The notes beneath the pieces are model-generated. The model saw only the letters and a program-made list of their open reading frames with translations. It was not told the DNA's origin and did no database searches. From Motilibacter peucedani (GTDB lineage: Bacteria > Actinomycetota > Actinomycetes > Motilibacterales > Motilibacteraceae): a DNA stretch of 64,000 bases. Each line of letters starts with the position of its first letter. Position 1 is the stretch's first letter. The position numbers were made by a program, and so were the translations under genes. Shown here piece after piece: positions 2,709 through 5,814 of this stretch. The DNA lies in NCBI RefSeq assembly GCF_003634695.1, contig NZ_RBWV01000016.1, positions 124,001 to 188,000 of the forward strand, in the 5' to 3' direction.

Positions 2709-2796
2709 GCCCCGACGCTAGGCCCCCGCGTCCCGCGCAGCACGTCGGGCTCGGCACACCGGACGGGGGTTGTCCGGACAGAGCACACTTGTAGGC
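2709..2796. promoter_or_regulatory. Divergent phr / ideR promoter region with two leaderless -10 elements
   Basis: 88 bp. For phr, TAGCGT (2715-2720, minus strand) lies 6 nt from the GTG. For ideR, CACACT (2784-2789) lies 7 nt from GTG 2797. Neither start has a Shine-Dalgarno at the expected distance. A short palindromic TGTCCGGACA lies at 2771-2780, just upstream of the ideR -10, and could be a regulator site. No obvious IdeR iron box was recognised. Confidence 0.55.
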
Positions 2797-3576
2797 GTGA
2801 GCGACCTCATCGACACGACCGAGATGTACCTCCGGACTATCTACGAGCTCGAGGAGGAGGGCGTGCCGCCGATGCGCGCGCGCATCGCCGAGCGGCTCGG
2901 CCAGAGCGGCCCGACGGTCAGCCAGACGGTCTCGCGCATGCAGCGCGGCGGGCTGGTCGACCTCGGCGAGGGCAACCGGCTGGTCCTCACGGCGGTCGGC
3001 CAGGCGACGGCCATGCGCGTCATGCGCAAGCACCGGCTCGCCGAGTGCCTGCTCGTCTCGGTCATCGGCCTCGACTGGGAGCACGTCCACGAGGAGGCGT
3101 GCCGGTGGGAGCACGTCATGAGCGAGGCCGTCGAGCGCCGCCTGCTCGAGCTGCTCGACCACCCCACGCACTCGCCCTACGGCAACCCGATCCCCGGGCT
3201 CGACGAGCTCGGCGACGCCGACCCGCACGAGGCCTTCCGCGAGGGGCTGGTGCCCCTGCCCTCGGCCGCGGTCTCGGAGGAGACCCGCTCGGTCGTCGTG
3301 CGCCGGCTCGGCGAGCCGGTCCACGACCCGGACGCGCTCGCGGTCCTGCGGCGCATCGGCGTGCAGCCGGGCGCCGTCGTCTCCGTGCGCCGCACCCCCA
3401 CCGGGGTGCTCGTGGCCTCCGGCGGCGAGAGCGCCGAGCTCACCGACGCCATCGCGGCGCACGTCTTCGTCGCCGCGGGCTCGATGCCGCTCGACGTGCC
3501 GGCCGGTGCAGGTCTGGAGGAGGCCGGGCTCGCCGACGCGGGCTTCGAGGAGGCGGCGTCCGTGTCGCGGGGGTGA
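2797..3576 (+). CDS. ideR: DtxR/IdeR-family iron-dependent transcriptional regulator
   Basis: 259 aa from the GTG at 2797; an upstream in-frame ATG at 2770 is rejected because it lies before the -10 element and homologues begin DLIDTTEMYLR. The N-terminal winged helix (1-70, QSGPTVSQTVSRM recognition helix) is followed by the dimerisation domain and a C-terminal SH3-like domain. All ligands used by IdeR/DtxR are present with the same numbering: Met10, His79, Glu83, His98, Cys102, Glu105, His106. With Fe2+ bound, such proteins repress siderophore and iron-uptake genes and activate storage genes. The C-terminal tail after the SH3 domain is about 25 residues longer than usual and acidic/alanine-rich. 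Confidence 0.95.
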   Translation: MSDLIDTTEMYLRTIYELEEEGVPPMRARIAERLGQSGPTVSQTVSRMQRGGLVDLGEGNRLVLTAVGQATAMRVMRKHRLAECLLVSVIGLDWEHVHEEACRWEHVMSEAVERRLLELLDHPTHSPYGNPIPGLDELGDADPHEAFREGLVPLPSAAVSEETRSVVVRRLGEPVHDPDALAVLRRIGVQPGAVVSVRRTPTGVLVASGGESAELTDAIAAHVFVAAGSMPLDVPAGAGLEEAGLADAGFEEAASVSRG

Positions 3577-3630
3577 AACGCCGGTGAACTGTGGCGTGCG
3601 CCACTTCGACGCGCAAACACCCCGGGGCTC

Positions 3631-3660
3631 TGGACGCGGGCCGTGACCCTCCCGTAACCT
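3631..3660 (+). promoter_or_regulatory. Candidate promoter of the riboswitch transcript
   Basis: TGGACG (3631-3636) and TAACCT (3655-3660) are spaced by 18 nt and would start transcription near 3667, about 35 nt before the aptamer. The rest of 3577-3700 shows no gene. Confidence 0.4.
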
Positions 3661-3700
3661 CCGACGTGCCTCCACCAACCGGCGGAGGCGCTTCCGGTCG

Positions 3701-3868
3701 GACGCCGAGTCCTGCCCCGGGCGGAAGCAGGGCCGTCTCGAGCGACCGTTCGGCAGGAGCGGGGGACCCACGTGATGTGGGCGCTCTTCGGAGCGTCCTT
3801 GGGGTGAAGTCGCGACAGCGACCGGGTGACTCTTCCACCCGAACCCGACAGCTCACCTCGCAGGCGTC
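3701..3868 (+). promoter_or_regulatory. c-di-AMP riboswitch (ydaO-yuaA class)
   Basis: This 5' leader carries the conserved blocks of the actinobacterial ydaO class in order: CGCCGAGTCCTGCC (from 3703), GAGCGGGGGACCCA (3757-3770), TTGGGGTGAAGTCGCGACAG (3809 on), CCACCCGAACCCGACAGCT (3836 on). P1 closes perfectly: GACGCC (3701-3706) with GGCGTC (3863-3868). The class binds two c-di-AMP molecules and lowers expression of cell-wall hydrolases, osmolyte and K+ transport genes. Here it precedes an NlpC/P60 hydrolase. Only two nucleotides separate P1 from the Shine-Dalgarno AGAAGGA (3871-3877), leaving no room for a separate terminator, which points to translational control (inference). Confidence 0.93.
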
Positions 3869-3883
3869 GGAGAAGGACTACGC

Positions 3884-4939
3884 GTGTCGTCTGCCGTCGT
3901 CGTGCGCCCGCTCGCCCTGGGGACACCTTCCGACCACCTCATCGAGGTGGTCCCGGCACCTGTTCTGCCCTCTCGCACTCCCGCCGAACCGCGCGGCCGC
4001 CGCCGCGCCGGCGCCCACCGCCGGCCCTCGACCGCCGGCCGCACCGCTGCCCGCGCGGCCGTCGTCCCCGCTGTCGCCGCCGCCCTGGCCGCCCCCGTGG
4101 TCGGCGCCGGCGCCGCGCACGCGGCCCCCGGCTCGCACTCCTCGGCCCGCCTGGTGCACGCGACCACGACCGGCGCCCGCTCGGCCGTCGCCGCGCACAC
4201 CTCGCTGCTGAAGGCCTCGCCCTCGGTGACGCGCGTGGTCACGAGCCACCCGTCCCTCGACGGCAAGGCCCGCGGCGGCGCCGTCCGCTTCGTCCAGCGC
4301 CGCCTCGGCGTCAAGCCGACCGGCAAGTTCGGCACCGCGACCTCGCGGGCCGTCGCGCGGCTGCAGCGGGCCGCGGGCCTGCAGGTCACCGGGGTCGTCG
4401 ACTCCGCCACCTGGCGCGCGCTCGGCGTGGGCTCGCACTCGACCAGCCCGGTCCGCACCCGCACCGCCGCCAAGAGCACCACCGCCAAGAGCACCACCGC
4501 GAAGAGCTCGGCGAAGAGCTCCGACCGCGTCGTCGCCAAGGCCGACAGCGGCCGCTCGGTCCGTCTCGAGAACGGCCCCGGCAGCCTCGCCTTCGGCAAG
4601 CTGGTCCTCGCCGCCGCCCGGCACAACGCCGGCGGGCCCTACCGCTACGGCGGCACCTCGCCCCGCGGCTTCGACTGCTCGGGCTACGTGAGCTACGTCT
4701 TCCGCCAGCTCGGCGTCTCGCTGCCGCACTCCTCGGGCGCCATCCGCGGCGAGGTCAAGAAGATCTCGCGCTCGCAGGTCCGCCCCGGCGACCTCGTCTT
4801 CGTCTCGAAGCACGGCCGCACCAGCCACGTCGCGATCTACGCGGGGGGTGGCTACTGGTACGAAGCCAGCCACCCCGGCAAGCCGGTCGGCAAGAACAAG
4901 GCCTGGACCTCGTCGGTCAGCTACGGCCGGGTCGCCTGA
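3884..4939 (+). CDS. Secreted NlpC/P60 peptidoglycan hydrolase with peptidoglycan-binding domain
   Basis: 351 aa. GTG 3884 has AGAAGGA 6 nt upstream. A long basic N-region (about 55 residues) leads into a hydrophobic segment ending AHA-AP, a signal peptidase I-type site. A PG_binding_1 domain follows (about 128-190, VRFVQRRLGVKPTGKFG ... DSATWRALG), then a Lys/Thr/Ser linker with KSTTA repeats, then NlpC/P60 (about 230-345) with catalytic Cys265 (FDCSGYV), His315 (SHVAIYAG) and His330. It should cleave D-gamma-glutamyl-diaminopimelate bonds in stem peptides. The c-di-AMP riboswitch directly upstream ties its synthesis to turgor/c-di-AMP status, as known for Rpf-type hydrolases in Streptomyces. 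Confidence 0.95.
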   Translation: MSSAVVVRPLALGTPSDHLIEVVPAPVLPSRTPAEPRGRRRAGAHRRPSTAGRTAARAAVVPAVAAALAAPVVGAGAAHAAPGSHSSARLVHATTTGARSAVAAHTSLLKASPSVTRVVTSHPSLDGKARGGAVRFVQRRLGVKPTGKFGTATSRAVARLQRAAGLQVTGVVDSATWRALGVGSHSTSPVRTRTAAKSTTAKSTTAKSSAKSSDRVVAKADSGRSVRLENGPGSLAFGKLVLAAARHNAGGPYRYGGTSPRGFDCSGYVSYVFRQLGVSLPHSSGAIRGEVKKISRSQVRPGDLVFVSKHGRTSHVAIYAGGGYWYEASHPGKPVGKNKAWTSSVSYGRVA

Positions 4940-4952
4940 CCCGACGCCACCG

Positions 4953-5021
4953 CGCGGGACCACCCCCCTCCTGGTCCCGCGACCCGACGCCCCGCCGCCC
5001 GTCCTGGGCTGCGGGGCGTCG
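4953..5021. terminator. Two strong hairpins between convergent genes
   Basis: Hairpin 1: CGCGGGACCA (4953-4962) with TGGTCCCGCG (4972-4981), 10 bp, 9-nt loop. Hairpin 2: CGACGCCCCGC (4985-4995) with GCGGGGCGTCG (5011-5021), 11 bp. They fill the gap between the NlpC/P60 gene and the convergent phosphatase gene and probably act as a bidirectional terminator; no T-tract, as is usual in such GC-rich genomes. Confidence 0.75.
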
Positions 5022-5040
5022 GTGCGTCCGCGCCCGGCCG

Positions 5041-5622
5041 CTAGGCCCAGGCGCGGGCAGGCACGTTCCAGGCGGTGACGGCCGGCCGGCCGTGCTCTCG
5101 GCCCAGCGTGGCGACGGTGCCCGTGTCGAGCACGAAGCCGCTCCCGGCCGCCGGCTCGAGCTCGAGCCAGCGGGCCGTGAGCACCCGCAGCAGGTGGCCG
5201 TGCGCCACCAGGCACGCGTCCTGCCCGGCGTCCAGCGCCGGACGCACCCGGTCGAGCACGCGGTCGGTGCGGGCGCCCACCGCGGCCGCGCTCTCGCCGC
5301 CGGGAGCGCCGTCGTGCCACATGTCCCACGACCCGACGCGCTCGAGGATCTGCGGCGTGGTGATGCCCTCGTAGTCGCCGTAGTCCCACTCGACGAGGTC
5401 GGCGTCGGTCTCGGGCTGCAGGCCGGCGAGCTCGGCCGTCGTGACGGCTCGGGCCAGCGGGCTGGCCAGCACGAGCCCGAAGTCGAAGGCCGCGACGGCC
5501 GGGCGCAGGCTGCGCGCCTGCTGCTCGCCCCGCCCGGTCAGCGGGACGTCGGTGCGCCCGGTGTGGCGGCCGTCGCGCGACCACTCGGTCTCGCCGTGGC
5601 GGAGCAGGACCAGCGTCGGCAT
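5041..5622 (-). CDS. Histidine phosphatase (phosphoglycerate mutase-like) family protein
   Basis: 193 aa. The N-terminus LVLLRHGETEWSRDGRHTGR contains the catalytic RHGE motif; the second His lies in VAHGHLLRVLTARW, and DYGDYEGITTPQI holds the proton-donor region. These are the marks of broad-specificity phosphatases of the dPGM superfamily; the substrate cannot be told. Start chosen at ATG 5622 (MPTLVLLRHGE) with an AGAGGTG Shine-Dalgarno; a longer reading frame exists upstream but lacks conserved sequence and would run through the divergent small gene. Confidence 0.9.
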   Translation of the reverse strand: MPTLVLLRHGETEWSRDGRHTGRTDVPLTGRGEQQARSLRPAVAAFDFGLVLASPLARAVTTAELAGLQPETDADLVEWDYGDYEGITTPQILERVGSWDMWHDGAPGGESAAAVGARTDRVLDRVRPALDAGQDACLVAHGHLLRVLTARWLELEPAAGSGFVLDTGTVATLGREHGRPAVTAWNVPARAWA

Positions 5623-5685
5623 GGGGAGGCACCTCTCGTCGGCGGGGCAGGGACGTCGGGGAGCGCGTCGCGCACACTGGGTGTC

Positions 5686-5814
5686 ATGCACGATCCGCTG
5701 CTCCCCGACACCACCACCGACGAGCGCGACGAGGGCTGGGGCGAGCGCCCCGAGCCCAGCGACGCCGACGACGAGCGCCTGCGCCGCGAGGTGCCGCCCC
5801 ACCACGGCGACTAG
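5686..5814 (+). CDS. 42-aa acidic conserved actinobacterial protein
   Basis: A short ORF: MHDPLLPDTTTDERDEGWG ... DERLRREVPPHHGD. The composition (Asp/Glu-rich, a central GWGE, a terminal RxxPPHHGD) matches small uncharacterised proteins that recur in Actinobacteria, which I recall but cannot verify here. CACACT (5673-5678) is 7 nt before the ATG, the same leaderless promoter arrangement seen at many genes of this window, which supports it being expressed. It is divergent from the phosphatase gene and convergent with mscL. Function unknown. Confidence 0.75.
   Translation: MHDPLLPDTTTDERDEGWGERPEPSDADDERLRREVPPHHGD

Follow-up and report, generated by a model that had tools for sequence, protein, structure and literature searches.

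A ydaO-class c-di-AMP riboswitch adjoining the Shine-Dalgarno region of an NlpC/P60 hydrolase gene in Motilibacter peucedani, with probable translational action through the aptamer pseudoknot

Introduction

The c-di-AMP riboswitches are usually described as terminator-based. In the case of the nlpC riboswitch of Corynebacterium glutamicum, raised c-di-AMP leads to less protein and leaves the transcript unchanged; the study reported translational action without a terminator and suggested a CTCC:GGAG pseudoknot involving the ribosome-binding site (RBS) (PMC9960051, 2023). RBS blocking was proposed earlier for Streptomyces, as cited in PMC8079986. The solved ydaO aptamer (RNA-Puzzles 12) has a pseudoknot (PMC5393176), and a review classes ydaO with the docking-type switches (PMC10907184). 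Given this precedent for translational control of an NlpC/P60 gene by c-di-AMP in C. glutamicum, the locus described here, found in a 64,000-nt stretch of M. peucedani DNA (hereafter the window, to which all coordinates refer), is a new example and not a new kind of switch.

Identification and span of the aptamer

A covariance search of the 64 kb window revealed one c-di-AMP (ydaO/yuaA) aptamer. The RF00379 model matched positions 3721-3881 (+) over its full length (model positions 1-134) with a score of 71.4 bits (E 1.4e-14), well above the cut-off of 38 bits. All core blocks expected from the Rfam consensus are preserved, which bears out the first-pass annotation of this DNA, where all conserved ydaO blocks had been reported as present. 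Judged from its sequence, the RNA leader is a c-di-AMP aptamer of the ydaO class, and c-di-AMP would be its ligand. The following elements were distinguished:

3701..3868 (+), c-di-AMP (ydaO/yuaA) aptamer, span corrected by alignment with relatives
3701..3706 (+), 5′ strand of P1, GACGCC; perfect pairing with 3863-3868; CGCC invariant in 14 relatives
3863..3868 (+), 3′ strand of P1, GGCGUC; the Shine-Dalgarno (SD) region lies directly 3′
3710..3716 (+), 5′ strand of P2, UCCUGCC, with partner GGCAGGA at 3752-3758; every cell paired (100%) among 14 relatives, with a both-side change at one pair
3759..3764 (+), 5′ strand of a core helix, GCGGGG, with partner at 3856-3861, in the conserved block GCGGGGGACCCA; from the Rfam alignment and pair counts
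3824..3840 (+), last aptamer hairpin, GGGUG-ACUCUUC-CACCC, loop 3829-3835; the stem covaries (helix 6) and the loop covaries with the SD tail across relatives

The Rfam alignment places P1, with a mismatch, at 3731-3734. This position is ruled out by the block CGCCGAGTCCTG, located at 3703-3714 in the window and invariant in 14 aptamers from the family or order of the window organism, which sets the true 5′ edge at the P1 starting at 3701. Rfam misplaces P1 in the window copy because the long P2 hairpin is skipped. The true 5′ edge is recognizable by GCCGAGTCCTG in 14/14 aligned same-family aptamers, and P2 of the window is an extended hairpin.

With P1 and P2, which close the two-fold core, set at their corrected positions, pairing holds for 97.9% of the cells of the tested helices in the 14 relatives, and changes on both sides occur in 7 of the 31 aptamer pairs, against 3.4 in shuffles (0/500), so the aptamer fold is not a product of chance. 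The P1 helix, described earlier as perfect, indeed has six of six pairs (3701-3706 with 3863-3868); pairs 5 and 6 show both-side changes among the 14 same-family or same-order sequences, and pairs 4-6 covary in a wider non-redundant set of relatives.

The hydrolase gene and its genomic context

The gene following the aptamer, and a motif preceding it, are:

3884..4939 (+), gene for a secreted peptidoglycan hydrolase with a GTG start; PG_binding_1 (aa 143-180) and NlpC/P60 (aa 250-335) domains (Pfam)
3643..3658 (+), direct repeat GTGACC-N5-GTAAC, MtrA-like; the second repeat overlaps a candidate -10 element

The 351-aa product contains an NlpC/P60 domain (E 2.7e-24; NLPC_P60, 85.6 bits against a cut-off of 23) and a PG_binding_1 domain (E 1.5e-12), and its orthologues at loci L004 and L006 share 64-65% identity and carry these same domains. 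The genome carries three RF00379 aptamers, of which L002 precedes a gene for an NlpC/P60 protein and L003 one for a transglycosylase (Rpf-type) protein, and it also encodes a protein with a DisA-type cyclase (DAC) domain. Within the class, RF00379 was detected in 111 of 148 genomes, spread across the class, and the switch is nearly always located 5′ of cell-wall hydrolase genes; the 90 downstream proteins scanned showed (i) NlpC/P60 (38), (ii) transglycosylase-like (Rpf) (29), (iii) LysM (25) and (iv) peptidase M23 (8) domains. The window locus is a typical class member with an ordinary layout. One genome (L223) carries two c-di-AMP aptamers at most 2.2 kb apart, each with its own start codon directly 3′.

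Upstream of the aptamer, a candidate promoter is composed of a -35 element (TGGACG, 3631-3636) and a -10 element (TAACCT, 3655-3660) separated by 18 nt. The nlpC gene of C. glutamicum is repressed by MtrA. The pattern KTRACC-N5-GTDAC, which is the consensus printed in PMC5650626 relaxed at one position, has a single match in the 64 kb window, with 0.12 expected, and similar sequences occur upstream of the orthologues L004 and L005. The GTGACC-N5-GTAAC repeat is a candidate MtrA site, a lead provided by the motif itself. The product of the preceding gene (2770-3576; same strand, approximately 300 nt away from the start of the hydrolase gene) is a metal-dependent repressor of the DtxR/IdeR type that carries a FeoA domain. 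Just past the hydrolase stop codon, a strong G+C-rich inverted repeat (CGCGGGACCA...TGGTCCCGCG, 4950-4980) without a T-run separates the gene from a convergent histidine-phosphatase gene (5041-5805, -).

The loop-tail pseudoknot across relatives

Aptamers parsed from relatives numbered 177, and 93 non-redundant loci were used to assess covariation between the last hairpin loop and the tail. This loop, located directly 5′ of CCCGAACCCG, and the tail 3′ of P1 are complementary, and the sequences vary by locus: CUUCCAG/CUGGAAG (L002, L014), CCUCCU/AGGAGG (L015), CUCACC/GGUGAG (L021) and CCUUCUC/GAGAAGG (L126). The mean loop:tail energy of the 93 loci is -9.24 kcal/mol, against -6.92 +/- 0.20 kcal/mol when permuted (0/5000, z -11.5), while the same permutation comparison was null for control stretches located further downstream (z -1.4) or before P1 (z 1.2). 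The pairing is the known aptamer pseudoknot; in the ydaO sequence printed in PMC5393176 the corresponding loop and tail are likewise complementary (CUCCUUCG/CGAAGGAG).

Of the 161 actinobacterial loci for which a start was called, 124 have a 3′ pseudoknot strand that overlaps the SD, which, together with the covariation, indicates that the aptamer normally includes the SD. Loci whose pseudoknot strand overlaps the SD window (class-a, 90 representatives) retain the signal (-9.28 vs -7.32, z -7.6), with median distances (n=90) of 0 nt between P1 and the pseudoknot/SD strand and 7 nt between this strand and the start codon. Loop:tail covariation is likewise present among loci whose called SD is located further downstream (z -5.0). 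A second layout, in 37/161 loci (L135, L150, L163 and 34 others), consists of the purine-rich pseudoknot strand, a second SD and then a more distant start codon. Several of these loci, e.g., L158, contain a GGCGG...CCGCC repeat around the SD that could compete with P1.

On balance, we lean towards the view that the c-di-AMP riboswitch of most actinobacteria acts as a single-piece translational switch, in which the SD constitutes the 3′ strand of the aptamer pseudoknot, and that a class-wide regulon of cell-wall hydrolase genes is under such translational control by c-di-AMP, accompanied by the second layout with its SD downstream. No statement of class-wide loop:SD covariation was found in the literature searched, in which the key primary papers were not covered, and novelty is not claimed.

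Proposed mechanism and the window copy of the pseudoknot

Two further elements complete the window locus:

3869..3877 (+), SD region GGAGAAGGA, which would form the pseudoknot 3′ strand; 6 nt separate its end from the GTG
3831..3835 (+), UCUUC, candidate anti-SD strand, pairing with GGAGA (3869-3873) or GAAGG (3872-3876)

The switch most likely turns translation of the NlpC/P60 hydrolase OFF at high c-di-AMP, through an SD held in the pseudoknot. Binding of c-di-AMP would stabilize the fold of the aptamer, with its P1 and its loop:tail pseudoknot; the 3′ strand of the latter would be the SD, and the bound aptamer would thereby hold the RBS directly behind P1. An OFF direction is expected, and formation of the window pseudoknot in vivo is presumed, probably aided by stacking on P1. 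A terminator is unneeded in such an arrangement, since the SD is itself the 3′ strand of the pseudoknot.

The first-pass annotation had attributed gating to P1 alone, ending two nucleotides before the SD and leaving no expression platform. This spacing applies to an SD taken as AGAAGGA but not to the SD region GGAGAAGGA, whose first purine is the base right after P1, with zero gap. The attribution to P1 alone is not supported by comparison with the relatives, in which the SD normally serves as 3′ strand of a pseudoknot within the aptamer.

The window copy of this pseudoknot is weak. Its loop, ACUCUUC (3829-3835), forms five pairs with the SD region, one of them a wobble, in either register; the predicted energy (-5.5 kcal/mol, 11-nt loop) is among the five weakest of the 177 loci, and the loop would find a better partner in 86% of foreign tails than in its own. 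Stronger pairing is predicted for the same-family orthologues L004 (-8.5 kcal/mol), L006 (-8.4 kcal/mol) and L007 (-11.2 kcal/mol), and for the two other copies in the genome, L002 (-11.2 kcal/mol, with seven pairs) and L003 (-9.0 kcal/mol). Strong sequestration of the SD by the window pseudoknot would be an overstatement, and was rejected, yet its formation is plausible. A second candidate anti-SD, in the P3 linker, was also rejected: GUCCUU (3795-3800) and AAGGAC (3873-3878) are perfect six-base complements in the window, but this pairing is not conserved (z -1.2, 92 loci).

If the loop:SD pseudoknot were lost or marginal in the window copy, P1, ending at the first SD base, might block the ribosome by itself. 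The weak loop:SD pairing fits this explanation, as does a P1 of six perfect pairs that leaves no gap before the SD; a preQ1 riboswitch, moreover, can attenuate translation with an RBS up to 10 nt from the aptamer (PMC10907184). We nevertheless regard it as rather unlikely, given the stronger pairings of L004, L006 and L007 and the conservation of the pseudoknot in the aptamer class; moreover, a six-pair P1 is ordinary, at least six contiguous pairs being present in 29 of the 90 class-a representatives. Within the preferred reading, a pseudoknot-held SD, the weakness of the window pseudoknot means that P1 and steric packing may carry a larger share in this copy.

Structure prediction of the leader gave little guidance: minimum-energy folding (nearest-neighbour) did not single out the aptamer (z 0.19), and the cost of opening the SD was near-equal with the aptamer imposed and without it (4.1 vs 3.7 kcal/mol, with P2 set one base off).

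Terminators and the level of control

A scan of both strands from 3500 to 5060, a region comprising the leader and the whole gene, gave no terminator-like site, in line with the lack of a terminator noted in the first-pass annotation. In a simple scan of the first 200 nt after P1, terminator-like sites were detected in 11 of 171 actinobacterial loci, compared with 6.9 in shuffles, and in 10 of 21 loci of Firmicutes, compared with 4.2. Most of the 11 actinobacterial sites belong to one related group, of which the two loci scanned for domains (L019 and L021) encode transglycosylase/LysM Rpf-type proteins. In L019, L021, L054, L059, L081, L094, L100 and L115 (mostly Streptomyces Rpf-type leaders) we observed a short imperfect hairpin ending in GCTGTTTT, which overlaps the start codon and the pseudoknot strand and might explain the premature termination reported for Streptomyces rpfA.

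A uniformly terminator-based arrangement in Firmicutes was rejected, as in L226, L236, L237, L241 and L244 an SD with its start codon follows immediately. Because several Firmicutes loci adjoin an SD without a terminator, the contrast with actinobacteria is a matter of degree. The departure from Firmicutes switches proposed for the window locus, as one that calls for a new mechanism, is not supported: the layout is common in the actinobacterial class, C. glutamicum provides a precedent, and some Firmicutes copies likewise have no terminator.

The RNA polymerase might alternatively stop in or after the c-di-AMP-bound aptamer, giving transcription attenuation without a canonical terminator. Such attenuation is reported for S. 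coelicolor rpfA in secondary sources (PMC10117811; discussed in PMC9960051), but the count of terminator-like sites in actinobacterial loci (11/171 against 6.9 in shuffles, compared with 10/21 against 4.2 in Firmicutes), their absence from 3500-5060 in the window, and the unchanged transcript of the C. glutamicum nlpC switch (PMC9960051) make it unlikely here. That the leader is a relic, with its core kept and its response or SD control lost, is very improbable: the weak loop:SD pairing of the window would suit it, but the Rfam core blocks are intact, and the genome encodes a cyclase and two further copies with stronger pairing (L002, L003).

Translational control, as proposed earlier, is the best-supported reading for an aptamer that adjoins the SD with no intrinsic terminator. 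The pseudoknot-held SD is supported by the aptamer score, helix covariation, the loop:tail energy, the pseudoknot of PMC5393176, the lack of a terminator, the cyclase of the genome and C. glutamicum nlpC; it is weakened by the weak window pairing, the uninformative folding and the report of termination at Streptomyces rpfA (PMC10117811).

The comparison indicates that the common actinobacterial form of this switch places the RBS inside the aptamer, before genes of wall-cutting enzymes. This makes the question of transcriptional versus translational control testable by compensatory loop/SD mutations, and allows divergent copies to be predicted. The window locus alone adds little; what remains of interest is the class-wide pattern and the weak pseudoknot of the window copy, which offers a natural test of the contributions of the pseudoknot and P1.

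Comparison with known systems

The ydaO (kimA) riboswitch of Bacillus subtilis (RF00379) shares the aptamer class and ligand with the window switch, but ends transcription via an intrinsic terminator (as cited in PMC9960051), and none is present at the window locus. The rpfA riboswitch of S. coelicolor and S. venezuelae is, like that of the window, an actinobacterial ydaO-class switch located 5′ of a cell-wall hydrolase gene; unlike in the window, the downstream gene encodes a transglycosylase-type Rpf, and premature transcription termination is reported (PMC10117811). In the env8 cobalamin riboswitch, an interdomain-docking switch (PMC10907184), a loop of the ligand-bound aptamer pairs with the RBS region, as proposed for the window; there the RBS lies in the loop of a separate hairpin, whereas in the window it is a single strand beside P1.

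The RSnlpC switch of C. glutamicum (cg2402/nlpC; PMC9960051) belongs to another actinobacterial order; its nlpC gene heads an operon, whereas the window hydrolase is followed by a convergent gene, and the loop:SD pairing predicted for the window is weak. Both consist of a ydaO-class aptamer 5′ of an NlpC/P60 peptidase gene with no canonical terminator, and the translational OFF evidence and the suggested pairing of a pyrimidine stretch with the RBS in C. glutamicum have their likely counterpart in the window switch, as judged from its sequence.
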